Positions 1 through 61,000 of a stretch of DNA of 64,000 bases are shown piece by piece. How positions within the stretch are numbered: the first letter of the stretch is position 1; the number at the start of each line of letters is the position of its first letter. The translations under genes and the position numbers were made by a program. The notes beneath the pieces were generated by a model, which saw only the letters and a list, made by a program, of their open reading frames with translations, searched no databases and was not told where the DNA came from. Source of the stretch: Solibacillus sp. FSL H8-0538 (lineage in GTDB: Bacteria > Bacillota > Bacilli > Bacillales_A > Planococcaceae); NCBI RefSeq assembly GCF_038003525.1, contig NZ_JBBOPI010000001.1:1355001-1419000 (forward strand), written 5' to 3'.

Positions 1-405
1 TTGCATCTTTACGGATTTCATATGTGTTACTTGGTGTAAATGGATGTTTTTCAAAGGAAATGCCGTTTTACTTTCGGTTTCTTTCGCTTCAAAGTCAATA
101 TAGTAGCCGTTCCATACACCGTTGTAATCCGTCGTAGAAGGCGTTCGGAAATAGGCTTCTCGAATGACCGCCGCACTTCGTGATGGATACTCTACTTTGA
201 CGATTTGCACAGGAACAGGTTTCTTATGAATGTTTGCCAAATTTTTCTGTAAATAAAATGCATTTGTTTCATTTAAATCATCTTCTAGGCTTTTACCACG
301 ATTACTATACGAAAAATCCTTGTCTTTTTTCTTTGATTTTGATGCGGCAGGCGTTTCGGTCGGTGTCGCTTTATACAGTTTGCCATTTGGATAACGAATC
401 GCCAT
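1..405 (-). CDS. recU: Holliday junction resolvase RecU (3' part cut by window edge)
   Basis: RecU cleaves and resolves Holliday junctions in recombination and chromosome segregation. The 135 codons present read [13 protein letters not shown] at the start, then a RecU-typical [11 protein letters not shown] segment, the EYPSR segment and the catalytic IDFEAKET region (Asp, Glu and Lys of the nuclease core). The frame is still open at base 1; RecU is usually about 200 aa, so roughly 65 C-terminal residues lie outside. The ATG at 405 has an AGGAGGGTG ribosome binding site six bases upstream. In B. subtilis recU precedes the penicillin-binding protein gene ponA and lies divergent from the yppE-mrfA side, which matches the order here. 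Confidence 0.95.
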
Positions 406-5625: not shown

Positions 5626-7374
5626 TTGAGCGGAAAACTTGCTAGTTTGCATTTAGATAAGTACGAGTCGCTATCACATTATCCAGACAATTTAATTGTT
5701 AAAATCTTCGAAAACGTTACAGAAGGCATCATGATAACCGATAAACAAAAGAAGATAATTGGAGTAAATCCAGCCTTTGAATTTGTAACTGGTTATAAAC
5801 GCGAAGAAGTTGTGGGGAAAGACCCATCGATCTTGCAATCTGGAGTGCATGATTTGAATTTTTATTTAGGAATGTGGAAAGGTCTACATGAGCACGGGAT
5901 CTGGCAAGGGGAAATCTGGAACCGTCGTAAAACAGGAGATCTTTATCCGGAATGGTTAACGATTATGGCTGTGAAAGATAATGAAGAAAATATTACGAAT
6001 TACTGTGGTATTTTTTCGGACCTATCCGAACGTAAAATCGTAGAGGACGAGCTGGAGAAGCGAGCACTGCGTGATTCATTAACCGATGTGTGTAATCGTT
6101 TTGCATTTTTAGAACGAATGAACGCATTATTAGAGTCAAGCGTAGGCATGTCAAAGCCTGTTTACCATGCTGTGTTTTTCTTAGATTTAGACCGCTTTAA
6201 ACATGTAAATGATATGTTAGGTCATTCAACTGGTGATTTATTGCTTGTGGAAATAGCGAAACGTATTAAGTCGCTATTGAAAAATAAAGATATTTTAGCG
6301 CGTTACGGCGGGGATGAATTCGTTATTACGTTAACGAATATTGTGCATCCACGCGAGGCAGCGAAATTTGCCGAGCAGGTCATTCGTATCATTGAAAAAC
6401 CAATTAAAATTAATGAGCAGGAAATTTTTGTGTCAACGAGTATGGGCATTAGTATTTATCCAAACGACGGACATACGACAGAGGAACTTGTGAATCGTGC
6501 AGATAAAGCGATGACATTTTCTAAAGAGAATGGTCGTAATGGCTTTGCTTTTTATTTTGATGATTTAAATACGGATACGAAGCGCGTATTATTATTAGAT
6601 ACAGAAATCCGTAAAGCAATTGATAATAGGGATTTCACACTATATTACCAACCAAAAATATGTGTTAAAACGAACACGATTATTGGTGTAGAGGCGTTAG
6701 TACGTTGGACAAATGACAAGCTAGGCTTTGTATCGCCTGCAGAATTCATTCCATATGCTGAAGAAACAGGGTTAATAATTCCGCTGAGCGAAATTATTTT
6801 TCAACTTGCTTGTGATGGACATACTGTACTGGCGAGCGAAGGGTATAATAAATTACCAATCGCTATTAACGTATCGAGTATTCACTTCCAACAGCAAAGC
6901 TTCTTAGAATCAATTCAGAAAATACTTGAAAAAAATAATGCTTCAGCTCAAAACTTTGAAATTGAAGTAACGGAGCGCACTGTAATGAACAGCGCTTCCG
7001 AAACAATTAGTAAGCTTGTAAAATTAAAACAACTAGGATTCAAATTATCAATTGACGACTTTGGGACAGGCTATTCGTCACTAAGCTATTTAGTGCGTTT
7101 CCCGCTCGATGTTTTAAAAATTGACCGCAGCTTCATTCAACATATTTGTTCGCTTGATGACAAGCAAGCAATTGTTGATGCAATCATTCAAATGGCGCAT
7201 CGCTTGAAAATGAAAGTTGTTGCGGAAGGTGCAGAAAGTGCACAGCAAGTAGAACTTTTACGTACAATGGGCTGTGATTATATTCAAGGCTACTACTATA
7301 GTAAGCCGTTACCGATGAACGAGTTGCTCGAGTTTATACAGTTTTGGGAAATCGAACATCAAGGAAGGGTTTAA
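5626..7374 (+). CDS. PAS-GGDEF-EAL cyclic-di-GMP turnover protein
   Basis: A soluble 582-aa c-di-GMP signalling protein. Residues about 25-135 form a PAS domain with PAC tail; a GGDEF domain carries the intact motif RYGGDEF near residue 228; an EAL domain carries GVEALVRW near residue 355, DDFGTGYSSLSYL and a KIDRSFI segment. Both catalytic signatures appear intact, so it could both make and degrade c-di-GMP. The inhibitory RxxD site before GGDEF reads KNKD, so product inhibition may be weak. The frame is open further upstream, but that part overlaps the rnpB terminator; TTG 5626, six bases after AAGGGTG, is the most likely start. No membrane segment is seen. Confidence 0.9.
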   Translation: MSGKLASLHLDKYESLSHYPDNLIVKIFENVTEGIMITDKQKKIIGVNPAFEFVTGYKREEVVGKDPSILQSGVHDLNFYLGMWKGLHEHGIWQGEIWNRRKTGDLYPEWLTIMAVKDNEENITNYCGIFSDLSERKIVEDELEKRALRDSLTDVCNRFAFLERMNALLESSVGMSKPVYHAVFFLDLDRFKHVNDMLGHSTGDLLLVEIAKRIKSLLKNKDILARYGGDEFVITLTNIVHPREAAKFAEQVIRIIEKPIKINEQEIFVSTSMGISIYPNDGHTTEELVNRADKAMTFSKENGRNGFAFYFDDLNTDTKRVLLLDTEIRKAIDNRDFTLYYQPKICVKTNTIIGVEALVRWTNDKLGFVSPAEFIPYAEETGLIIPLSEIIFQLACDGHTVLASEGYNKLPIAINVSSIHFQQQSFLESIQKILEKNNASAQNFEIEVTERTVMNSASETISKLVKLKQLGFKLSIDDFGTGYSSLSYLVRFPLDVLKIDRSFIQHICSLDDKQAIVDAIIQMAHRLKMKVVAEGAESAQQVELLRTMGCDYIQGYYYSKPLPMNELLEFIQFWEIEHQGRV

Positions 7375-7377
7375 ACT

Positions 7378-8517
7378 ATGACAAAATTTCAACTAGTAGC
7401 AACAGCTGCAATGGGCTTAGAGGCAATTGTTGCAGAAGAAGTACAGGCATTAGGCTATGAAACACGCGTCGATAACGGCAAAGTGTATTTTGAGGGAGAC
7501 GAAATGGCGATCGCGCGCTGTAACTTATGGTTACGTGTAGCTGACCGTGTAAAAATTGTGGTCGCACAATTCCCAGCACATACATTCGACCAATTATTCG
7601 AAAGTGTAAAAGCGATTGAATGGGAACGTTATTTACAGGTAGATGCAGCATTCCCTGTGTCAGGTAAATCGGTAAAATCAAAACTATTCAGTGTTCCAGA
7701 CTGCCAAGCGATTACAAAGAAAGCAATTGTGGAGCGCATGAAGTTCCACTATAAACGTCTAGGCTTCTTAGATGAGTCTGGTGCAACATATAAAATTGAA
7801 ATATCTATTTTAAAAGATGTTGCGACATTAACGATAGATACATCAGGTGTAGGACTTCATAAACGAGGGTATCGTCAAGTACAAGGGGATGCACCGCTAA
7901 AAGAAACATTAGCAGCGGCACTTGTTAAAATCTCTAAATGGAATCCGAATCGTCCATTTGTAGATCCTTTCTGTGGTTCAGGTACTATTGCACTTGAAGC
8001 AGCAATGATTGGGCAAAATATCGCACCTGGCTATAACCGTGAGTTCATCTCTGAAGAGTGGCCATGGATGAAACAAGCTATTTGGGAGCAAGCGCGTAAC
8101 GAAGCAGATGAAGCAGCAGATTATGATCAAGAGTTAACAATAATTGGTTCTGATATTGACCATCGCATGGTGAGCATTGCACAGGAAAATGCACTTGAAG
8201 CAGGTTTCGGTGACATAATTACATTCAAACAAATGCAAGCAAGAGACTTTACAACAACGTTAACAGACGGTGTAGTTGTCACGAACCCTCCATACGGTGA
8301 ACGTATCGGTGAAGTAGAAGTAATTGAACAAGTGATCCGTGACTTTGGTCAGGTAATGAACAATTATCCAACCTGGTCCGTATATATGCTATCTTCAATG
8401 GAAAACTTCGAAGAATTATACGGTAGAAAAACGACGAAAAAGCGTAAGCTATTCAACGGCTTTATCCGTACAGACCTTTATCAATACTGGGGTCAAAAAT
8501 CGAGAAGAGAAGATTAA
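7378..8517 (+). CDS. ypsC: THUMP-domain 23S rRNA-type methyltransferase YpsC
   Basis: A 379-aa S-adenosylmethionine-dependent RNA methyltransferase of the RlmL/RlmK N2-guanine family. The N-terminal THUMP region (RNA binding) spans roughly residues 45-155, followed by the Rossmann fold with DPFCGSGTIALEAA near residue 195 and the catalytic NPPYGER motif near residue 303, typical of amino-group methylation. The ATG follows the previous stop by three bases with GGAAGGG upstream. The gene sits in its usual Bacillus place after gpsB and rnpB. The exact modified base is not readable from sequence. Confidence 0.92.
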   Translation: MTKFQLVATAAMGLEAIVAEEVQALGYETRVDNGKVYFEGDEMAIARCNLWLRVADRVKIVVAQFPAHTFDQLFESVKAIEWERYLQVDAAFPVSGKSVKSKLFSVPDCQAITKKAIVERMKFHYKRLGFLDESGATYKIEISILKDVATLTIDTSGVGLHKRGYRQVQGDAPLKETLAAALVKISKWNPNRPFVDPFCGSGTIALEAAMIGQNIAPGYNREFISEEWPWMKQAIWEQARNEADEAADYDQELTIIGSDIDHRMVSIAQENALEAGFGDIITFKQMQARDFTTTLTDGVVVTNPPYGERIGEVEVIEQVIRDFGQVMNNYPTWSVYMLSSMENFEELYGRKTTKKRKLFNGFIRTDLYQYWGQKSRRED

Positions 8518-9204
8518 TTTTTAAAAAGGCTGTTCTAAAAATGATAATTTATCATATTTAGTGCAGTCTTTTTCAACATTTTCTTAATTATTTCCATTTA
8601 TTATTTCGACTTTTTGTATATAAGAATAAGATGGAAAGTATGTAACAACTAGGACTAACTATGTTTTTACTCCATTTTGCAAAATGACGTAAATGGTGTA
8701 TTTTAAATATACTGGATAAGGATGTTTTAATACATATGTTTGAACTGCAAAAGAAAAATTGCCGCAAACCTGAGGCGTCTGTTAAATCAATGCGAAGTAG
8801 AAGTGAGTTCTAAAACGCAGTCGAACTTCCATTAAATGATTTTTTCTAGAGTGTTGTCAATAAAGTGGTTAATATTTTGATTTTACAAGCGTATAATCAT
8901 TTGAAAAGTGAAATTTCAGCTGATAAAGCACTAGGGAAGTGTCAACTATTTACAGAAACCTACTATCCAGATTATGTGTAAAAGGCTCCTAGAGATGATT
9001 AATTTACGTAAGCGATGGATATCCTATTATCAATTTGGGTATACAATAGGTAGCAATAATTATGCTACAGTGAAATTAATTATGTGAAATGGACAAATTA
9101 GTAGGTTTTGTGGGAATTTCATAGTATACTGATAGGTACGAATAAAATAAAATTTTGAAAAAGATGAAACGTTTTAAATGGGTGGCTATCTTTTTATTAA
9201 GTGA
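8518..9204. other. 687-bp intergenic stretch with decayed coding remnant
   Basis: There is no intact gene here. A 43-codon open frame at 8853-8981 (ending ALGKCQLFTETYYPDYV) looks protein-like but is closed upstream by a stop at 8847 and has no ribosome binding site, so I read it as the tail of a lost gene. The rest is AT-rich. A possible -10 (TATACT, 9126-9131) lies before the helicase leader, but no matching -35 is visible. Confidence 0.4.
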
Positions 9205-9251: not shown

Positions 9252-11156
9252 TTGAGACAATCTTTACCATTTGAGTTATCAAAGGATCGTTCATTTTTCG
9301 AGTCATTAGGTGACTGGATGGGCGACGTTTTATATGATGAATTACCTGAAAAGGGCTTTGAATGCCGCGATGAACAAATTTTCATGGCGTACCAAATTGA
9401 ACAAGCATTAAAAGAAAAAAATGTGCTGTTTGCAGAAGCGGGTGTAGGGACAGGGAAAACAATCGCCTACTTATTACCAGCCGTATCATTTGCTCGTTAT
9501 ACCGGCAAACCCGCGTTAATTGCATGTGCCGATGAAACTTTAATCGATCAGCTCGTAAAAGAGGGCGGCGATGTGCATAAATTACGTGATCACTTAGGTC
9601 TGAATATTGACGTACGTTTAGCCAAATCACGTGATCAATATCTTTGCTTAAAACGCTTTGAAGAAGCAGAAAAAACAGAAACAGAAGAGTGGATTGACGA
9701 TATCGCCTTCTCAATTCCGGATGGCGTATACGCGCAAGGCTCAATGATTGTGGTGAAGCCTTACGGAGATCGTTCAGACTATTCAACTGTAAGAGATGAA
9801 GACTGGCAAAAAGTAAATTACAACGCCGTTATGCAATGTGCAGTTTGTGACTTACGTAACCGTTGTGGTCAAACATTGCACCGCGCGCATTACCGTAAAT
9901 CAACAGACTTGATTATTTGCTCTCAGGACTTTTTAATGGAGCATTTAGCTACAAAAGAATCACGGGAACGTGAAGGGCAATTGCCGCTTTTACCTGAAGT
10001 TTCAATGGTTGTACTTGATGAAGGTCACTTACTAGAATACGCGGCGCAAAAGGCACTCACTTACAAAGTTCAAAGTTACACAATTGTAAAGTTGCTTGAA
10101 CGTTTAATGGTTGATGGTGTGCGCGAGCGTACATTATATGCTATGGAACGTCTGCAAGACCATCACGAGCTGTTTTTTGACCAGTTACGGGATGATGTCG
10201 TTGCGTCAGAGGATGATCGCAAGCGAATTAATAAGTCAGACAGGTTAATTACGATTGGCAAGCAACTAGTTATCGATGTGGAGCAGTTGCTCGAAGAATT
10301 CGTATTTGAATCGGAACTTTATATGATTCCGGAATATGAATTAAATATGGCTGAAGAATTTTTAGAGCATTATGTAGCATCAATTCGCATCTTTACTGCG
10401 CAAGGTGATGCAGTGGACTGGCTTGAGGAAACGGACGGAGAAGAAACACTAGTTATCATGCCGCGCCTTATTACAGACGTACTAGCGGAAACATTATTTG
10501 CGAAAAAGATGCCAACTGTATTCTCATCTGCCACTTTATCAGTAAATAAGGATTTCTCTTATATCGCGTATAGCCTAGGTATTAAAAATTACCAAAGCTT
10601 TAGCGTTCCTTCACCGTTTGATTATGATGAAGTAATGAAAATTTACTTGCATGAATTACCGCAAGAAGAGAAAGCTGCGAAAGTAGAGCAGTTGTTACGT
10701 GATAATAAAAAGACATTAATATTATTTAAATCGAAGCAAGCGATGAACCAGTTCAAATCGCATCTTAGCATGATGGCACGTATAAAAGTTGCCTTTGAAG
10801 GAGACCGCGAATTGTCAGCAATCGTGCGTGATTTCCAAGATGATACTGTGCAAACATTGTGCTCGTATCATTTATGGGAAGGATTAGACTTACCAGAGGA
10901 AGCATTAACGCGCGTAATCATTTATGATCTACCATTCCCTCCACATGACCCACTATTTGATGCGAAGCGTGCCTTTGCAGAAGATGCGTTTGAAGAGGTA
11001 GAATTACCGTTCATGCAACTGCGTTTACAGCAAGGTATGGGCCGTTTAATCCGTACTTCAAATGACTACGGTGATATTCATATTTTATTAAATGAAGAGG
11101 AAGCTCGTGTGAAATCTGAATTCGAAGCGATTTTACCAGTACAGCCTCAAGCATAA
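9252..11156 (+). CDS. ypvA: DinG/XPD-type ATP-dependent helicase (YpvA-like)
   Basis: A 634-aa superfamily 2 helicase of the DinG/XPD group. Walker A AGVGTGKT is near residue 64 and the DEAH-type box is LDEGHLL. Four Cys, one in YLCLKRF and three in the CAVCDLRNRC group, match the iron-sulphur cluster that stabilises XPD/DinG helicases. C-terminal motifs include SSATLS, LILFKS and the QGMGRLIRT arginine-finger motif. TTG 9252 with GGGGGGA just upstream is preferred over the open frame starting at 9201, because the earlier codons are inside a hairpin. The family unwinds DNA with 5'-3' polarity; the substrate in this organism is not known. Confidence 0.9.
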   Translation: MRQSLPFELSKDRSFFESLGDWMGDVLYDELPEKGFECRDEQIFMAYQIEQALKEKNVLFAEAGVGTGKTIAYLLPAVSFARYTGKPALIACADETLIDQLVKEGGDVHKLRDHLGLNIDVRLAKSRDQYLCLKRFEEAEKTETEEWIDDIAFSIPDGVYAQGSMIVVKPYGDRSDYSTVRDEDWQKVNYNAVMQCAVCDLRNRCGQTLHRAHYRKSTDLIICSQDFLMEHLATKESREREGQLPLLPEVSMVVLDEGHLLEYAAQKALTYKVQSYTIVKLLERLMVDGVRERTLYAMERLQDHHELFFDQLRDDVVASEDDRKRINKSDRLITIGKQLVIDVEQLLEEFVFESELYMIPEYELNMAEEFLEHYVASIRIFTAQGDAVDWLEETDGEETLVIMPRLITDVLAETLFAKKMPTVFSSATLSVNKDFSYIAYSLGIKNYQSFSVPSPFDYDEVMKIYLHELPQEEKAAKVEQLLRDNKKTLILFKSKQAMNQFKSHLSMMARIKVAFEGDRELSAIVRDFQDDTVQTLCSYHLWEGLDLPEEALTRVIIYDLPFPPHDPLFDAKRAFAEDAFEEVELPFMQLRLQQGMGRLIRTSNDYGDIHILLNEEEARVKSEFEAILPVQPQA

Positions 11157-11159
11157 CGA

Positions 11160-11190
11160 AGGGCGCTCGCAATTTGCGGGCGCTTTTTGT
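11160..11190 (+). terminator. terminator after the helicase gene
   Basis: GCGCTCGC and GCGGGCGC flank an AATTT loop at 11163-11183 and are followed by five T. Confidence 0.8.
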
Positions 11191-11329
11191 ATTGGATAGA
11201 TAACGCGGGGAATTAGATAGATATAATGGCAAATTTAATAGATAAATTTCCTATTTAAATAGATAAAACCGTAGTTAAGATAGTTAACATCTCAGACTAA
11301 CAAAAATAATGAGATTTTTTTCGCAATAA

Positions 11330-11356
11330 TTGAGTCAAATGGCAAACTTATCCGTC
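11330..11356 (+). promoter_or_regulatory. possible ECF-type autoregulatory promoter
   Basis: TGAGTC (11330-11335) and CGTC (11353-11356) are 17 bases apart, near the TGAAAC/CGTC pattern of Bacillus ECF sigma factors, 23 bases before the sigma gene. The -35 has two mismatches, so this is only a candidate. Confidence 0.35.
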
Positions 11357-11378
11357 TATATCATTAAGGAGGTGCAGC

Positions 11379-11888
11379 ATGGCGTTTCAATTCGAACGAA
11401 ACTTTATATTACATAATAAAGCAATATTCCACTATATTTATTTTCTTGTTGGGAACAAGGAGACAGCAGAGGATTTGACGCAGGAAACCTTTTTAAAGGC
11501 GATACAAGGGGGGAAGTCATTTCGCGGGGATGCAGAAATGAAGACATGGCTCACGAAAATTGCGCGCAATACGGTGTATGACCACTTTCGCCGTAGAAAG
11601 GTTATTCGATTTATACCATTTCTAAAAAGCCATGAGGAAATTGACCATACCTACGAACCGGAAAGCTGGCTTTTACATAAGGCGGAGGACTACAGACTTT
11701 ACGCGGCACTTGGCCAATTGAAATTTGAGTTCCGGGATGCAATTGTACTACGCAAAATTGAAGGGTACTCTATTAAAGAAACGGCAAAAATCCTCGAGTA
11801 CAGTGAAGCAAAAGTGAAAAACTGTACCGAGCGCGGCATGAAGGCACTTCGCGAATTATTAGGGGGTGAATCCGATGAATTTAGATGA
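11379..11888 (+). CDS. ECF RNA polymerase sigma factor
   Basis: A 169-aa extracytoplasmic-function sigma factor. Region 2 includes ETAEDLTQETFLKA (core binding and -10 recognition) and FRGDAEMKTWLTKIARN; region 4 contains the helix-turn-helix around DAIVLRKIEGYSIKETAKIL and SEAKVKNCTERGMKAL. ATG 11379 has a strong AAGGAGGTG. Its stop overlaps the next gene, a membrane protein with a short cytoplasmic N-terminus, the usual sigma/anti-sigma arrangement. It resembles the SigX/SigV/SigM group, but the specific orthologue cannot be named from sequence alone. Confidence 0.92.
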   Translation: MAFQFERNFILHNKAIFHYIYFLVGNKETAEDLTQETFLKAIQGGKSFRGDAEMKTWLTKIARNTVYDHFRRRKVIRFIPFLKSHEEIDHTYEPESWLLHKAEDYRLYAALGQLKFEFRDAIVLRKIEGYSIKETAKILEYSEAKVKNCTERGMKALRELLGGESDEFR

Positions 11889-52596: not shown

Positions 52597-53553
52597 TTAT
52601 TGTAGAATATTGGGTGGAGATGCGTTGTTGTTTGTTGAAGATGCGTTTAATACCGATGCAGCTATATTAGATAAATGAGCATTATTAGGTGTACCGTCTA
52701 GAGGTGTTTTTGTTGCACCTGCATTTAAGCTGTTGTCACCATTCGTAGAAGAATCTTGCTTGTTCCCGCTATTTTTAGAAGCTGAAGTTGTTTTAGTACC
52801 CCCACTATTTGAAGAAGCTTTTTTCCCGCCACTTGAATTTCCATTTTTAGCATTATTCGCGTTAGCATTTACGTTCGTAGTGGAATTCTCATTTGATGCG
52901 CCACTCGATGCGGACGATTGCTTTCCACCATTATTCGTTCCAGTAGCATTTTGTGATCCGGTCATACTCGCCACGTCATTCATAATTTTACCAACCTGTG
53001 GTACTACGGTTTGTGCGATGTTACCAATAGTTTGAGCCGCATTTCCACCGGACATTTGTTGGGCCACCTTTTCAATCGTCTGAGCAATGTTGTTCCCCGC
53101 AGCATTTTGTCCAACCCCGCCATCACTCATGTTTTGTGTATCACTCGTACTTTGAGATGCATTTCCACCATTTACTATTTGCAAAATATTTTCTACCATC
53201 TGGAAAATGGTTCCTCCCGTTTGATTAGTGCTACTACTCGAAGCACTTTGTCCGGATTGATTTCCGCTTTTCATCGCTACTCCTGCACCAGCTAATGAAA
53301 CTAGAGAAGCGTTTCCGTTCATCACTTTTTGCAACAAGTTACTGCTCGACATCGCGGAACCCATCGCTTTTCTTGGACAATATCTTGTTGCGCCTTCCGC
53401 TGCTTTCATTGAACCATACAAGACGAGCATTTGACCACGTTTGCTTTTCGGATTCCGCATAAGTTGGATAGTACCGTATGCGGTCATCATTGAGCCCAGC
53501 ATGAAACGGGCGTATGCATTTCTGGAACTGATGTTTTGTTGATTATGTGTCAT
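52597..53553 (-). CDS. DUF2892-like protein with long Asn/Ser-rich tail
   Basis: A 318-aa protein. Residues 1-65 resemble DUF2892 small membrane domains (SSRNAYARFMLGSMMTAYGT, then a second hydrophobic segment and CPRKAMG). Residues about 95-318 are low-complexity, rich in Asn, Ser, Gly and Gln, with heptad-like QTIxxIAQ segments, and probably disordered or surface-exposed. There is no signal peptide. AGGAGGG precedes the ATG. The function is unknown; the composition is like that of some spore-surface proteins. Confidence 0.75.
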   Translation of the reverse strand: MTHNQQNISSRNAYARFMLGSMMTAYGTIQLMRNPKSKRGQMLVLYGSMKAAEGATRYCPRKAMGSAMSSSNLLQKVMNGNASLVSLAGAGVAMKSGNQSGQSASSSSTNQTGGTIFQMVENILQIVNGGNASQSTSDTQNMSDGGVGQNAAGNNIAQTIEKVAQQMSGGNAAQTIGNIAQTVVPQVGKIMNDVASMTGSQNATGTNNGGKQSSASSGASNENSTTNVNANANNAKNGNSSGGKKASSNSGGTKTTSASKNSGNKQDSSTNGDNSLNAGATKTPLDGTPNNAHLSNIAASVLNASSTNNNASPPNILQ

Positions 53554-54276: not shown

Positions 54277-56118
54277 TCATGTCATATGCTTACTATCATA
54301 TTCTGGGAAGTGAAAAGCATAGATGAAGGTTAGAAATTCTTCGAAGGGAAGGGAAGATTCTCCTTCTAGTTCTCCATTTCCCGTAACGCTTGTTTGAATA
54401 GAGTTTCCCCAAGTTTGCAAACTGTCGTTATTTGGATTGTAAAAATAAACACGAATGGTACCAGATGGATCTGAATCGATTCTTTGTATAAGGACAGCGT
54501 GAGCACCAAGAACCTGGCCGGTACGATTGTAAATTGTAATGCCAGCAGGTTGAGGAAGCCCTGCATTAACGTTAGGGTTCATTGTTGGATGATAATAACG
54601 TCGGAAGCTTTCATGAAACGTTAAGTCATTATAGATATCAGAAAAACCTGACCAAATTCCTATCATATGAAAAGCTGGGTTAATCCACTTATGAGGGTCT
54701 TGCCCACGTCCTTCAGCTGCTTTTAACATTTCGAAATAAATCGCATCCAGATGAGCAACAAATAGTAAGGATATCCGATCGATATTAATTTCATCTTCAA
54801 GCGGAACAGGAGAAAGCATATCAGAAGAGATGACTCTATCTTCAAAAGGAATTGAGATGCTTCCTGTTCTCAAAAATTCATTAAACATTTTTAATAACAG
54901 CACCGGTTTTTTTTGTGACCAATAACTGATTGCCCTTGTGGATTGGCACGTAGGATTAAACCCTTGCCCGATCCCTAAAGGTGTTCCTAAAATATTTAAC
55001 ATTTCTGACACGATAAGAGCTCGTGGAGTAGGTGTATTGGTGTATTGTTGAAGAGTTGAAAGTCTGGTTTTAATCTGCTCATGGATAGGAACCTTCATCA
55101 GCTCTTCTAGTTCTTTTATCAGTTCACTCGTAAATATATCTCTTTGTAATAAACGAAGTAAACCATAAATACTTCTACGCGTTTTCACCATAATTGAAGA
55201 AGAAATAAAAGAAGAAATAAAAGGAAGGCTTAACTGTAGATTTCCTTTTGCTTTTTCGTCCACAGCAAGAATGTATTGGAGCAAGTTTGGTTTTTCTTTA
55301 TTGATATAATGCAAGAAGACTACATGAAAGGGTGAAACAAGCCCAGTTCTTTCCATAGATGAACGTAACTGCTCAGCTTCCTTCATTAAAATTGAGTCGC
55401 TTACGTTTTTTAGTTCGTATTCATAATCTCCCCCAGTACTTTTAGCCATATCTGATGGAGAAAAAACGGCATTTTCATAAAGCATCAGCTTCGAGTTCGA
55501 TTCTTCCAACCTACCAGCTAATTTTTTTGCACTCCCAATGAGCTTCATAATTTTATTCGTGACAATTGGCCTTTGAACAGCGAGGTTATCCACCTCTTGA
55601 TAGAGATTTTCATAAACACGTGACGAAAAACAGTGTTCAGAAATAAATCTTAAAATTTCAGAAGCCTGTTCATCCTTGTAAAGTAGGGTTACTCGATTTT
55701 CTTCGGTTTCCTTCATGATGAGCAAATCGATATTTAAAGCCAATACCATCGTCAAAAATTCTGTTGCTTCATAGGCATACATATTTGGATGTACATAGTG
55801 ACCTCTTGCAATGGCAAGAACTCTTAGATTGCTCAAGATTTCTGCTACTGCCTGCTTACCATCATGCAGTGTACCTCTAACAAGAGTAGGATTGAGTTTC
55901 TGTACATTTTCCCATGGTTTTCCTATAAACAATCCAGCCTGATCAAAGAGATGAGCATAGACATAAAGTTTTTCCAATCCATTCGGTTCTTTGAGAAGGG
56001 CGGATGCTGCATCAAATACAGTTTGTTGAAATAATTTTTTACTTTGTGAAGAAGCATGCCATAACTGTTGAAACGCTCTTTCAAATGAATTCTCTGTAGA
56101 TAATTGGAAAAGTCCCAT
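54277..56118 (-). CDS. large protein with Cys-His-Asn pattern, paralogue 1
   Basis: A 613-aa cytoplasmic protein of no family I recognise. Residues 1-380 are mostly helical (LPFISSFISSSIMVKTRRSI, MKVPIHEQIKTRLSTLQQ). The conserved C-terminal part starts at NPTCQSTRAISYWSQ (Cys 391) and continues to LGAHAVLIQRIDSDP (His 540) and YFYNPNNDS (Asn 561), ending GELEGESSLPFEEF. The Cys, then His, then Asn order with these local patterns is like papain-fold peptidases and transglutaminase-like enzymes. It is a paralogue of the 56873 product with its own ribosome binding site (GAAAGGAGG) and is separated from it by about 750 bases. Confidence 0.7.
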   Translation of the reverse strand: MGLFQLSTENSFERAFQQLWHASSQSKKLFQQTVFDAASALLKEPNGLEKLYVYAHLFDQAGLFIGKPWENVQKLNPTLVRGTLHDGKQAVAEILSNLRVLAIARGHYVHPNMYAYEATEFLTMVLALNIDLLIMKETEENRVTLLYKDEQASEILRFISEHCFSSRVYENLYQEVDNLAVQRPIVTNKIMKLIGSAKKLAGRLEESNSKLMLYENAVFSPSDMAKSTGGDYEYELKNVSDSILMKEAEQLRSSMERTGLVSPFHVVFLHYINKEKPNLLQYILAVDEKAKGNLQLSLPFISSFISSSIMVKTRRSIYGLLRLLQRDIFTSELIKELEELMKVPIHEQIKTRLSTLQQYTNTPTPRALIVSEMLNILGTPLGIGQGFNPTCQSTRAISYWSQKKPVLLLKMFNEFLRTGSISIPFEDRVISSDMLSPVPLEDEINIDRISLLFVAHLDAIYFEMLKAAEGRGQDPHKWINPAFHMIGIWSGFSDIYNDLTFHESFRRYYHPTMNPNVNAGLPQPAGITIYNRTGQVLGAHAVLIQRIDSDPSGTIRVYFYNPNNDSLQTWGNSIQTSVTGNGELEGESSLPFEEFLTFIYAFHFPEYDSKHMT

Positions 56119-56730
56119 ATTTTCGTCCTCCTTTCAGTTTTATAAATATAATTAACAAAAATGTTTCATTTTAAAACACCATCATCTAATCGGTGGTTAG
56201 GTTGTTATAGTTAGAATATTTAAAAACTTCAATAAAATTACCATTAAATAAATAAATTTAAAATTAATTGATTTTCTCGAATAGTAAAAAATTAATGAAT
56301 TATGGAACAAAGGCTAAGTACGCTACGTCCTATGGCAACGCCTTTGAGACCATCATCGTGTTGGCTTCATTCCAGGGACTCAAGTTGCTTGCTAATCCCC
56401 TAGAAGTTGACGCCTCCACTCGAATCAACTTGTAATTGCTGAGAATAAATGCGTCATTGGCATTTATTTACTGATAAGTTGTATCTAGAATTCGTCAATT
56501 CGCGTTTTTCAAAAAAATTAGTCGTTTATTAGAAAGGCAGCACAAGCCGAACAATCCCTTTTGCAAGAAATCGAAGTATAAAAAAAACACGTGAGAAATC
56601 ACTATAAAATTGAAATGAAAAATACTGACTAAACAATCACTGTAAATATGATACAGCTTCATTCGTGGCCAATCTGAAACGGATTGTGAAATTACTGACC
56701 GGAATAGTGAAAGAATAGAAAAAGAAAACC
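56119..56730. other. 612-bp stretch without an intact gene
   Basis: The left third is very AT-rich. A block at 56315-56440 (GTACGCTACGTCCTATGGCA.. to GCCTCCACTCGAATC) has a different composition and looks like an end fragment of a mobile or repeated element. Start-less protein-like pieces (for example DTASFVANLKRIVKLLTG near 56650) follow. No gene can be supported. Confidence 0.35.
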
Positions 56731-56777
56731 GACACTTCCTGTTCAATATCGAACAAAAAGTGCCGGATTTTTATTTT
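56731..56777 (-). terminator. terminator of the ATP-grasp operon
   Basis: CCGGCACTT pairs with AAGTGTCGG around a loop containing TTCGATATTGAA, followed on the minus strand by TTTTCTTTTTC. Confidence 0.75.
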
Positions 56778-56872
56778 GAAAAATCAATTTGTTTTATAAA
56801 CATAAGTTTTTCAATGCGCTCCGAATCAATTTGGTTCTTTTATATCGAATGCATTAAAATAGAACGACTTCG

Positions 56873-58915
56873 TTATGCCCAGACATAATTTTTTCCCCAG
56901 CTGTTCTTCGCCAATGCTTCCACTTTTTCAACAAGGCTGTCTTCCACCATATACGTGTCACCTTGTTCGTATGGATTATAGTGGTATGCATACATTCTTG
57001 ATACAAATTCATGAAACGGTAGGGAGGATTCGCCCTCTAATTCACCGAGGCCTGACACACTGGCTTTAATGCCTTGGCCCCAATTTTGAGTGCTGTCGTT
57101 ATTAGGATTGTAAAAATAAATTCTAGTAGCACCATTTGGATCTTTATCAATCCGATGAATCGAAACGGCATGAAGACCAAGGAGCTCTCCATGTACATTT
57201 GTTAGAAAAATACCGACTGGATTTGGATAAATTAACTCATATCCCTCATTAAAATCGGGATGGTGGGTTGCGTAAAATAGTTTCACGAAAGTGGAATAGT
57301 TGGTAACTTCCAATGAATATTGATCCAGTACATTGTTAAAACCACTTGGAATCCACTCACCATAAAATTCGCGGTTCACCCACTTATGACCATCCTCTCC
57401 TCGAAGAAGTGTTCGCATCATCATTTCGTTATAAATTTTATCTAGGTGGGGGACAAGAAGTATCGATACTGGATCTAAATCTTGTTTCATATCATCGGCA
57501 ACCCCACCTAAAAGAAGGCTGGAATGAATGATTTCATTTTCAAAAGTCATCACAATATCATGGTCGCGTGCGGCACGAATGATGAATTCCAACAGCTGAC
57601 TCATATTAAATTGTGCCCAAAGAGAAATGCCCCTCGCGGATTGACAAATTGGGTTTAGACCTTGCCCAACACCAAGTGGTTGCCCGAGAACACTTACGAC
57701 TCCAGCAATAAGAATGCCATTTATGCTTATTGCACTCTGTTCATTGACAAATAGTGAAAGTGATTTACGTACATGTGCATGAATCGGCAGCTCAAATAAC
57801 TGACGAAGGATAGGGACAACTGAATCTATTTTAAGTACGCCACGATTAAGCAACTTTGAAAGTCCATATATTGCTTGTCGTGTTTCAGGGTAGATAGCAA
57901 TCTGGATAATATCATGAATTAATTTTTGATTCGTATTAAAACTTGAAGTTCCCGTTTCTGTTAAAGCGAGTGATGTTGTAATAATATCGTAATTTTTCCG
58001 GTTAAGGAAACGAAGAAGAACGGCATGGAAAGGTGAAACAAGGCCGGTTTCCTTCATCGATTCTGCAAATATTTTTGCCTCAGCCAAAAGTTCTTCTTCA
58101 TTTGCCTGTTCTAATTTTAGTTTGTATTCTCTTTGATCAGCAGAATCTATGCTTAGTGGTGTTGGAGCATCTGTGGCACGTGCATACTTTTCAAGAGCTC
58201 CTGTTGTTTTTTCGTCAATCTCACTATTCAATAATTGTTGTGACATGTGAATCATATCTAGAATTCTACGAGTAATAATAGGGCGTTGAACCGTCAGTCT
58301 GTCAATCTCTTGAACCATTTGCTCAGCAACTGCTTTGAATGAAAGCTCCTGACCAAGGTACGTAAATAAATTTTGAGCACGGATGATATGATCTTCTAGA
58401 GGAGTCGTATTTTCCTCTGTTTCAACAGGGGACAACAAATCAAGATTCAGTGCTAGGACTTCATTTAGAAAGGCACTCGCATCTTCTTCAGTTAAACGCT
58501 CATGTTTAGCGGTTCCTTTTGCAATCGCAAGCATTCTCATTTCACTCAACAATTCGATAATGGAATAGATTCCTCTCACTCGTAAAGAAGCACCTACAAA
58601 TGGAGGTTGTAATTTTGATGGGTCTTCCCATTCTCCTCCGAGGAACACACCGGCTAGGTCAAATCGGTGTGCATATTTTTCAATAATGGCCATGCCTTCG
58701 TTTGTAGATGCTAACTCATTCGCAATTTGGTAAACATTTGTTTGATAAAGACTTTTTGCGAAAGGCTTTGCCTGTTCCAGTATATTTAAAGCTGGTTCAA
58801 ATTTTTCTTCTAATAGGGTAAATGGGTTATTGACCTTTTTTCTCCTAGAAGTCGTACTTGCTGTTTTTTTTCTAGGTGTAGTACTTGCTGCATTTTCTTT
58901 TGTTACAGTACTCAT
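56873..58915 (-). CDS. large protein with Cys-His-Asn pattern, paralogue 2
   Basis: A 680-aa paralogue of the 54277 product. It adds a basic N-terminus (TTPRKKTASTTSRRKKVNNP) and a longer C-terminus (MVEDSLVEKVEALAKNSWG). The helical body covers residues about 40-410; the conserved part has NPICQSARGISLWAQ (Cys 424), LGLHAVSIHRIDKDP (His 582), YFYNPNNDS (Asn 603) and GELEGESSLPFHEF. No signal peptide or membrane helix. It starts 15 bases after the ATP-grasp gene and must be co-transcribed with it. The pattern suggests a cysteine peptidase or acyl-transfer enzyme, possibly acting with the ligase; this is inference. Confidence 0.72.
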   Translation of the reverse strand: MSTVTKENAASTTPRKKTASTTSRRKKVNNPFTLLEEKFEPALNILEQAKPFAKSLYQTNVYQIANELASTNEGMAIIEKYAHRFDLAGVFLGGEWEDPSKLQPPFVGASLRVRGIYSIIELLSEMRMLAIAKGTAKHERLTEEDASAFLNEVLALNLDLLSPVETEENTTPLEDHIIRAQNLFTYLGQELSFKAVAEQMVQEIDRLTVQRPIITRRILDMIHMSQQLLNSEIDEKTTGALEKYARATDAPTPLSIDSADQREYKLKLEQANEEELLAEAKIFAESMKETGLVSPFHAVLLRFLNRKNYDIITTSLALTETGTSSFNTNQKLIHDIIQIAIYPETRQAIYGLSKLLNRGVLKIDSVVPILRQLFELPIHAHVRKSLSLFVNEQSAISINGILIAGVVSVLGQPLGVGQGLNPICQSARGISLWAQFNMSQLLEFIIRAARDHDIVMTFENEIIHSSLLLGGVADDMKQDLDPVSILLVPHLDKIYNEMMMRTLLRGEDGHKWVNREFYGEWIPSGFNNVLDQYSLEVTNYSTFVKLFYATHHPDFNEGYELIYPNPVGIFLTNVHGELLGLHAVSIHRIDKDPNGATRIYFYNPNNDSTQNWGQGIKASVSGLGELEGESSLPFHEFVSRMYAYHYNPYEQGDTYMVEDSLVEKVEALAKNSWGKNYVWA

Positions 58916-58930
58916 GCTTCAATTCACTCC

Positions 58931-60157
58931 TTATAAGTAGAAATTATGTTTTTCAAATTTTTCTAGCAGAATTCGCATTTCTTGACTATCTTCACCGAAG
59001 AATGTAATTGATCCATAATGGTTACCATATCCTACTCGTTCTGCGACTTTGGCTGTCATCGGGATGAACATATCATGTTTTAGGAAATATGGATGTTCTT
59101 TCAGTTCAGTCGGAATGTTTAATTTTGTTACAGATTTTACTTTTGGATAAACCATCAAGTTGCCGGAATGCCCTTTTGCTGAACCAATTTCGTCAGGGAA
59201 AAAGGCTTCTAGTTGTTCTTCTAGTGTATCTGGATCACTACAAAGAACTTGTGCTTGATATGGACTGAACCCATAAACTCTTTCAATATGCTCGAAAATA
59301 TGACCGCCTGGGATACGTGCAGCAACCTCACCGAAATATAAGATGCCATCAGTGCTAATGAAAAACTCAGGATGGATAATGCCGTATTGAATTTCAAAAG
59401 CATTCACAAGCGTTTCAATCGCTTCTCTAATTTGTGGTCTCCATTGTTCAAGTGATGGAGAGGCGGGAACAAAGTTAGAGTGCCCAAGCTTGACATATTC
59501 CGTGATATTCAAGAATTTTATTTTTCCATTATGGATAAAGGCCTCACATGAAAATTCTTGGCCTTCTAAGTGGCTTTCCATTAAAAGAGGGAATTCTGAA
59601 TCGTCAATTTCTACTATGTCATCTAGATTTGAAATCATTCGATGCCCAACTGTACCAGCTTTATCAAATGGCTTCACATGAATCGGTTCGTAAGTCTCAC
59701 CATCTAACTTTATTAATGATTGGTTCATTCGTTTGAAGAATCGGGCAATATCTTCTTTATTAAATGCTTCTTCAAAGACACCAACTCGAAGACCTGCTAA
59801 GTGTGCTCTACGTTTCATCAATCCTTTATCTCGTAACAGTAGGGATTTATTAAAAATTTTAGGGTTTTCCCAAAGTAATGAATTAATCATGCCAGCCCAT
59901 TCAACAGTTTCTTCATATATTGGGACAGTTAGTTTTGTATTTAGTTCTTTTAATTTTTCATAAAGCTCGATTGAGTTTTCGATTGGAACTTCGAAATTCC
60001 AAGGGATTAATTCGATTCCATTTTTTTCAGCAAACTCCTTAAAATCTGCTGGACCAACAACGACAAATGGACGCCCCATTTTATCAATTGCTTCAATTGC
60101 TTGTAGACTCCAGCCAAGTAATGCTGTAGTTTGGGTTTGATTCTCTTTCATCGCCAT
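58931..60157 (-). CDS. ATP-grasp carboxylate-amine ligase
   Basis: A 408-aa ATP-grasp protein: Rossmann-like N-terminus with TALLGWSLQAIEAIDKMG, central DKAGTVGHRMISN, LLMESHLEGQEFSCEAFI, and the metal-binding end IIHPEFFIS...GEVAARIPGGHIFE. The last motif is the ExxARxPGG variant found in amino-acid ligases of peptide antibiotic pathways. The start is probably ATG 60157 (AGGGAG just upstream), though GTG 60172 is in frame. An extended -10, TGGTATAAT, lies at 60270-60265 on the minus strand. It heads an operon with the 56873 gene. Confidence 0.82.
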   Translation of the reverse strand: MAMKENQTQTTALLGWSLQAIEAIDKMGRPFVVVGPADFKEFAEKNGIELIPWNFEVPIENSIELYEKLKELNTKLTVPIYEETVEWAGMINSLLWENPKIFNKSLLLRDKGLMKRRAHLAGLRVGVFEEAFNKEDIARFFKRMNQSLIKLDGETYEPIHVKPFDKAGTVGHRMISNLDDIVEIDDSEFPLLMESHLEGQEFSCEAFIHNGKIKFLNITEYVKLGHSNFVPASPSLEQWRPQIREAIETLVNAFEIQYGIIHPEFFISTDGILYFGEVAARIPGGHIFEHIERVYGFSPYQAQVLCSDPDTLEEQLEAFFPDEIGSAKGHSGNLMVYPKVKSVTKLNIPTELKEHPYFLKHDMFIPMTAKVAERVGYGNHYGSITFFGEDSQEMRILLEKFEKHNFYL

Positions 60158-60397
60158 GATTCTCCCTATCACTTGATTTATTTTATTTCTAGTAAAATGT
60201 TCTATTCGTATCTTATTTTACTAAAAAAAATAGCAAATGAAATGCTTTCGACAAATAATTCTGAATTATACCAAAAATAGAATAATTGCTACATTATATC
60301 CTATGTATTATTTAATAATCCCAATGATAAGATATGATTAACTCAAATTTCAGACTTATTAGATAAAATAAAAAATCAGTCAAAGGGGTAATTCAAT

Positions 60398-61000
60398 TTG
60401 GTAATCCAAAAAGAGAGTGTAATTGAAGAAGTATACGCGGTTAAAAACTGGTATGAACGATTGAAAGAATATTTTCCAGAGCGAGAAATGAAGTCTAAAA
60501 AGCATTTTGATGTTCTTTTTAAAGAAAAAAAGGGAACTTATAAAATGATGGAAGGTTTGGATTATCTAGTTGTTTACTTTGAGCAACAAGAGTATATATT
60601 CATAGATTATATTTTAGTTTCGGGGAATAGTCGGGGAAAAGGCGTAGGAACTGTGGTTTTGAATGAATTGAAAAGTAAAGGAAAAGCAATTGTATTAGAA
60701 GTTGAGCCCATTTCGGAGATTGATCCGGATTCTGAAAAAAGAATTCGCTTTTATCAACGACATGGTTTCTTAATTGTGGATAATATTGGTTATGAGAGAG
60801 TTCATTTAGTAACAAATGAGCTCAATAAAATGGATATACATTGCTGGTCGCCACAATGTGTAACGGAACAATGGGTATTAGATTGCATGAAAGAAATTTA
60901 TAGTGAAGTTCATGCATATAAAGTAAAAGAAATCTTTGGCCGTGACCCTCAGCCAGCATCAGAAGTGCTCTGGCTAAAAGAAAAAGTAAATGTCCAATAA
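60398..61000 (+). CDS. GNAT-family N-acetyltransferase
   Basis: A 200-aa acetyltransferase. The acetyl-CoA loop SRGKGVGTVVLNELKSKG (an RGxGxG-type pattern) follows the beta strand YIFIDYILV, and the later FYQRHGFLIV is the usual C-terminal GNAT strand. The start is TTG 60398 with AAAGGGG upstream. The C-terminal 50 residues (HCWSPQCVTEQWV) are unusual. It is divergent from the ATP-grasp gene, 240 bases away, so a shared control region is possible. Confidence 0.82.
   Translation: MVIQKESVIEEVYAVKNWYERLKEYFPEREMKSKKHFDVLFKEKKGTYKMMEGLDYLVVYFEQQEYIFIDYILVSGNSRGKGVGTVVLNELKSKGKAIVLEVEPISEIDPDSEKRIRFYQRHGFLIVDNIGYERVHLVTNELNKMDIHCWSPQCVTEQWVLDCMKEIYSEVHAYKVKEIFGRDPQPASEVLWLKEKVNVQ

Follow-up and report, generated by a model that had tools for sequence, protein, structure and literature searches.

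What does a bacterial gene cassette make when it pairs an ATP-grasp ligase with large proteins that carry a fixed cysteine, histidine and asparagine? The question is raised by a 64,000-nucleotide stretch of the Solibacillus sp. FSL H8-0538 genome (assembly GCF_038003525.1, contig NZ_JBBOPI010000001.1, forward-strand positions 1,355,001 to 1,419,000), here called the window, in which a ligase gene, G, is followed by the paralogous genes B and A and lies divergent from a GNAT acetyltransferase gene. The explanation that we favor, with slightly less than even confidence, is that G and B, together with an acetyltransferase and optionally A, constitute a cytoplasmic Bacillales cassette whose product is a small amide or short peptide, N-acetylated and derived from a diamino acid, most probably ornithine; this compound would probably serve as a compatible solute, at least in halophilic carriers. 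The genes and the codons central to this reading have the following window positions.

56873..58915, minus strand: B, 680 aa; residues ~31-411 predicted all-helical, ~396-647 predicted papain-like domain
54277..56118, minus strand: A, 613 aa, paralogue of B and optional cassette member; tetrad Gln385/Cys391/His540/Asn561
58931..60172, minus strand: G, 413 aa, ATP-grasp ligase (PF13535, ATP-grasp_4), 15 bp upstream of B
60398..61000, plus strand: GNAT acetyltransferase, divergent from G; its clade was seen only beside the cassette in the sample
57662..57664, minus strand: codon of B Gln418 (papain oxyanion-hole position, Cys minus six residues), invariant in 52 sequences
57644..57646, minus strand: codon of B Cys424 (predicted nucleophile, at the N-terminus of helix 424-436)
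57170..57172, minus strand: codon of B His582 (within strand 578-591)
57107..57109, minus strand: codon of B Asn603 (immediately past strand 597-602)

The gene positions in the original prediction hold, apart from the start of G: 60157 is an internal ATG, and the reading frame runs to 60172. B lies directly behind the ATP-grasp gene, as had been described, across a 15 bp gap that contains an AAGGAG-type ribosome site. A and B were said to share a C-terminal part. They do, but the similarity is not restricted to it, since the two proteins align over their whole length (37% identity, 615 columns, E 2e-138). Cys391, His540 and Asn561 of A and Cys424, His582 and Asn603 of B occupy the positions claimed for them, as do the CQS, LGxHAV, YFYNPNNDS and GELEGESSLPF motifs. 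Gln418, Cys424, His582 and Asn603 (B numbering) are invariant in 52 of 52 aligned relatives, both B-like and A-like, and the Cys motif and the His/Asn motifs are present in all 110 full-length family members. In papain, a glutamine stands six residues ahead of the catalytic cysteine; because Gln418 precedes Cys424 by the same distance, the pattern in B corresponds to the full papain tetrad, beyond the triad.

Structure prediction places these residues in a papain-like setting. In an AlphaFold2 model of B computed on the 52-row alignment (pLDDT 85), residues 31-411, the N-terminal two thirds, are purely helical, and the C-terminal part combines helix and sheet; residues 396-680 modelled alone gave a pLDDT of 87 and a pTM of 0.86. 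When this C-terminal domain was compared with the PDB by VIA-align, all 50 of the best matches listed belonged to the papain superfamily. The top match was to calpain-3 and other calpains (Z 7.9, 4.6 Å over 201 residues), and further matches included the ComA C39 peptidase (Z 7.7), the PCAT1 peptidase (7.4), staphopains (6.3), cathepsin B (5.0) and proteins of the IdeS/Mac-1 type (4.9). The ranges aligned on the domain model (15..251 on 14..248 for cathepsin B and 15..252 on 10..173 for staphopain) are consistent with a Cys-on-Cys superposition. In the predicted secondary structure, Cys424 opens a helix, His582 lies in a strand and Asn603 falls just after one. As far as residue order, spacing and secondary structure go, the proposal of a papain-like site agrees with the model, in which Cys, His and Asn follow one another as they do in papain and at comparable distances along the chain; the predicted structure assigns the C-terminal domain to the papain superfamily.

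Neither A, B nor the distant family members were matched by Pfam or NCBIfam HMMs, and a profile of the catalytic domain found no match among PDB sequences. A Foldseek search of the whole B model against the PDB and viral structures returned no significant match; the helical N-terminal part had no convincing relative in this whole-model search, which is not evidence for a new fold. Because no sequence-family library matches A or B, the two proteins seem to form a papain-superfamily family of their own, not described before and extended by a large helical part. The cassette proteins gave only marginal matches to PADLOC models (E 0.01 or worse), and no relative was found among phages and viral contigs; a phage or viral origin was rejected, and the cassette does not resemble the anti-phage defense systems in those models. 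Inspection of B revealed no evident signal peptide, and its location is therefore probably cytoplasmic.

G scores 36.7 bits against PF13535 (ATP-grasp_4; cut-off 27), and its nearest solved relative is the L-amino acid ligase 4wd3 (E 5e-8). Lys116, Lys167, Glu269, Glu282 and Arg286 are invariant in 23 sequences, and the ExxARxPGG motif reported earlier is present at residue 282. By sequence, G is an ATP-grasp_4 protein with a predicted amino-acid ligation activity.

G and B are linked by their joint distribution. A scan of genome contigs confirmed 523 pattern-matching stretches as B relatives, from which the best 80 loci, nearly all from Bacillales, were kept; a distant B relative was also found on a large Halomonas plasmid record. 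G is located directly upstream of B at 80 of the 80 loci and on the Halomonas record; where the ribosome site could be located, the gap is mostly 12-75 bp. Of 300 Bacilli genomes sampled, nine contain B and eight contain G, and all eight G-bearing genomes carry B, so that the anticipated co-occurrence with an ATP-grasp gene is near-perfect. The ninth B-bearing genome (locus L006, G025:C10:22045-23406) contains a B gene interrupted by a TAG stop and no G, and represents a decaying cassette; this fits a joint function of the two proteins. At locus L170, two convergent B-type genes are found (7126-9075, plus strand; 9345-11390, minus strand), one of them behind G, and a gene for a CBS-domain SpxR-like regulator lies upstream of G. 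Locus L021, on a record titled Chryseobacterium sp. ISL-80, holds a Bacillus-like cassette (63-70% identity); the record probably bears a wrong label or contains contaminating sequence.

A is an old paralogue (support for the main A clade, 99%) that accompanies the pair at only 18 of the 80 loci, in most cases behind B. This rules out the fixed trio of A, B and G envisaged earlier, and the recurring third type of partner is instead an acetyltransferase. In the window genome A probably has its own transcription unit, because a terminator-like hairpin separates it from B.

56766-56729, minus strand: terminator-like hairpin of 17 pairs between B and A, a match to consensus only

The B-A interval of the window also contains a Bacillaceae-1 RNA (RF01690, 62.3 bits; 56298-56364, plus strand, opposite to B and A), and a second copy of this RNA is found at locus L047 (2023-2090). 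No riboswitch or T-box reached the gathering threshold in window positions 50-64 kb or in 16 related loci.

The GNAT gene is divergent from G at 34 of the 80 loci, the arrangement seen in the window, and the cassette-linked GNATs form one clade (100/100), separate from the unlinked homologues that are common in Bacilli. Loci of a sister branch in the B tree have, in its place, a neighboring gene for an AblB-like acetyltransferase, which scores above the NCBIfam cut-off for TIGR03827; some of these genomes have a tight AblB-like/G/B run with gaps of 46 and 18 bp, and the linked AblB-like proteins again constitute their own clade (100/99). In the sample of 300 Bacilli, three of the nine genomes with B encode an AblB-like protein at this level of similarity (about 230 bits or more), as do two genomes without B. 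The recruitment of two acetyltransferase clades is thus lineage-specific, and because two branches of B recruited two different acetyltransferases, we argue that acetylation belongs to the pathway of the cassette. Synthesis of Ne-acetyl-beta-lysine by the linked AblB-like enzyme was considered and set aside. Lysine 2,3-aminomutase (AblA) is absent in 14 of 27 cassette genomes checked, including several with an AblB-like gene, which makes beta-lysine an improbable substrate there; the separate clade of these proteins is the other reason. AblB-like genes outside cassette genomes (L156, L157) adjoin metal-transport-type genes, which give no clue to a substrate. Orphan AblB-like genes of the linked clade are located away from the cassette at loci L102 (8233-9057) and L103 (8620-9462), in genomes that have G and B and lack lysine 2,3-aminomutase. 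Two Pontibacillus genomes carry a gene for a C45/AAT autoproteolytic acyltransferase in the divergent slot beside G (L070, 5317-6369, minus strand; L085, 5111-6163, minus strand).

A possible substrate is indicated by the genes that follow B in Neobacillus and Ectobacillus relatives (L011, L013, L014, the L016 genome and L017), where ArgC, ArgJ, ArgB and ArgD genes in the same direction precede A. The linked argCJBD set is complete in L011 and L154; argD is missing from L014, only argJ is present in L013, and L017 stops at a contig edge. This set is an extra one. Two ArgJ genes were found in five of five such genomes and a single one in seven of seven control carriers. The linked ArgJ proteins are 85-88% identical to the L011 copy, and the other genomic copy, which belongs to a regular argCJBD(-carAB)-argF operon in both genomes that were inspected for it, is 55-63% identical to it. 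The enzymes encoded by argCJBD convert glutamate to ornithine via acetylated intermediates, and the linked set, which carries no later arginine gene, thus constitutes a dedicated second argCJBD set.

Genes with ties to osmolytes adjoin the cassette in other lineages. In the halophile family, genome G625 (locus L171) has an ectoine-synthase gene, EctC, 51 bp after B in an AblB-like/G/B run (188 bits, cut-off 128); the substrate of ectoine synthase is an N-acetylated diamino acid.

L171 6056-6442, minus strand: ectoine-synthase gene directly behind B
L171 11448-13349, plus strand: asparagine-synthetase-like gene, divergent from the AblB-like gene

At L047, B is followed by betB, betA and proB, and at L159 gbsA and gbsB are upstream of G. 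Halobacillus halophilus accumulates Nd-acetylornithine and Ne-acetyllysine (PMC2412884) and a Planococcus strain accumulates Ne-acetyllysine (PMC4685198); cassette carriers occur in Halobacillus and Planococcus, at genus level.

In the mechanism that we propose, ornithine would come from primary metabolism or, in one lineage, from the dedicated argCJBD set. G would use ATP to activate a carboxylate for bonding to an amine, in the manner of L-amino-acid ligases; formation of an amide with an ornithine-type unit is proposed because the ATP-grasp residues are kept and the nearest solved relative is an L-amino-acid ligase. A free terminal amine may then be acetylated by the GNAT (in the window) or by the AblB-like enzyme (in halophiles). 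B, and A where present, would act on the same amide through a Cys acyl-enzyme formed at the Gln-Cys-His-Asn site of the papain fold, leading either to acyl transfer to another amine or to hydrolysis for remodelling or turnover. A bolder version of this scheme is possible but doubtful: an undescribed compatible-solute pathway in which the ATP-grasp ligase and a new papain-superfamily family of transferases or amidases build an N-acetylated, ornithine-containing dipeptide or amide osmolyte, possibly cyclised by EctC, with dedicated ornithine supply and exchangeable acetyltransferases. The peptide-processing idea of the original prediction is only partly supported: the argCJBD, AblB-like and EctC genes point to small molecules derived from amino acids, of the diamino-acid or osmolyte type, more than to a modified ribosomal peptide.

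Several observations weigh against the ornithine-amide cassette. The helical domain of ~380 residues is large for an enzyme acting on small molecules and could bind a protein. All structural Z scores are below 8, a range that the tool flags as possibly unspecific, with a single fold throughout. The EctC and betB-betA-proB linkages were each seen in a single lineage. In the Halobacillus/Rossellomorea group, no acetyltransferase gene is linked to the cassette at most loci, and the carriers as a whole include many non-halophiles (Lysinibacillus, Ureibacillus, Neobacillus). In the window no arg genes or AblB-like gene are linked, and the window genome is without AblB; the suggested osmolyte role, which derives from neighbors in the halophile branch, is accordingly weaker for the Lysinibacillus/Ureibacillus-like lineage of the window, where only the GNAT is linked.

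The same gene content could also be read as a protecting-group strategy, in which G would use an amino acid to mask one of the two amines of ornithine or lysine, the other would be acetylated by the GNAT or AblB-like enzyme, and B would remove the mask to yield Nd-acetylornithine or Ne-acetyllysine. Such a scheme would explain why ligase, acetyltransferase and hydrolase share a cassette, and its products are those that accumulate in Halobacillus (PMC2412884) and Planococcus (PMC4685198). One N-acetyltransferase would nevertheless suffice to make these compounds, without any ligase, and we regard the scheme as unlikely. Equally unlikely, in our view, is a pair that makes and breaks one amide: G would couple a diamine or polyamine to an amino acid or peptide, B would hydrolyse the same bond, and the GNAT would acetylate the polyamine, in the manner of glutathionylspermidine synthetase/amidase. 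The constant association of ligase and papain-fold enzyme agrees with this, ornithine from argCJBD is also the usual precursor of putrescine, and in a Bacillus genome bin (locus L155, 1218-3600) genes for a carboxynorspermidine synthase-like protein and NspC lie ~0.5 kb from the cassette GNAT. Polyamine genes are, however, linked at this one locus only, the AblB-like and EctC partners indicate diamino acids instead of polyamines, and no family of the glutathionylspermidine type was matched.

The fusion of a large all-helical domain to a papain-like domain, with ATP-grasp ligases that modify proteins as a general precedent, would also suit protein tagging, in which G would modify a protein with an amino acid or short peptide, and B or A, recognising the target by the helical domain, would take this group off or pass it on. 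We consider this improbable: the dedicated ornithine-making set, the acetyltransferase partners and EctC are small-molecule genes, and no conserved gene for a small substrate protein adjoins the cassette. Least probable is a peptide antibiotic or signal, with G making a dipeptide like the bacilysin- or rhizocticin-type ligases, B and A maturing it and the GNAT giving self-protection, since the L-amino-acid ligase likeness of G and the patchy distribution (9 of 300 Bacilli) are countered by neighborhoods in which exporter, warhead and regulator genes are not conserved and by trees that resemble long-term inheritance within genera.

Window positions 52597-53553 (minus strand) encode a protein of 318 aa that has a membrane segment resembling YgaP and a long tail rich in Ser, Asn and Gly.

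The pair is of interest because a papain-fold family without a Pfam or NCBIfam name is very tightly paired in Bacillales with an unstudied ATP-grasp ligase, and because gene context suggests a substrate class, ornithine and acetylated diamino acids. Should the product prove to be an osmolyte, the cassette may bear on the production of acetylated ornithine- and lysine-type solutes by halophilic Bacillales; B, if an acyltransferase, would represent a papain-fold peptide-bond enzyme acting intracellularly on small molecules.

Comparison with known systems places the cassette near several of them. G resembles the L-amino-acid ligases (PF13535; 4wd3) in its above-cut-off domain, its ATP-grasp residues and the ExxARxPGG-type motif, but it is distant in sequence and always paired with a papain-fold protein. 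B and A share with the papain peptidases (calpain, staphopain, C39, cathepsin B) the predicted fold and the Gln-x5-Cys...His...Asn order, and differ from them in lacking a sequence-family match, in the helical N-terminal domain and in never being encoded as a stand-alone protease gene, only beside a ligase. The AblA/AblB pathway pairs AblB with lysine 2,3-aminomutase; the halophile cassette acetyltransferase scores above the AblB model, but it belongs to a separate clade and AblA is missing from several of the genomes concerned. In glutathionylspermidine synthetase/amidase an ATP-grasp-type ligase works with a papain-like Cys amidase, and the cassette has two predicted enzymes of these kinds as separate genes, in a context of ornithine and acetylated diamino acids rather than glutathione and spermidine; no match to fused CHAP amidase and GSP_synth domains was found in A, B or G. 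The N-acetylglutaminylglutamine amide (NAGGN) system uses an ATP-grasp ligase and a GNAT to make an acetylated dipeptide osmolyte, and the cassette is alike in this concept. Its G and GNAT are nevertheless separate genes rather than an ATP-grasp/GNAT fusion, and the usual cassette has no amidotransferase and the papain-fold B and A in its place; the asparagine-synthetase-like gene, seen in one fetched locus only, scores 361 bits against the NAGGN-model cut-off of 570. NAGGN itself is an osmolyte (PMC1224877). No published description of the G-B pair was found, and an earlier mention in the review literature on amidoligase systems is possible. As a kind, predicted pathways that combine ATP-grasp ligases with GNAT and papain-like partners are already known, and related operons with ATP-grasp, GNAT and papain-fold members are on record (PMC2922099).

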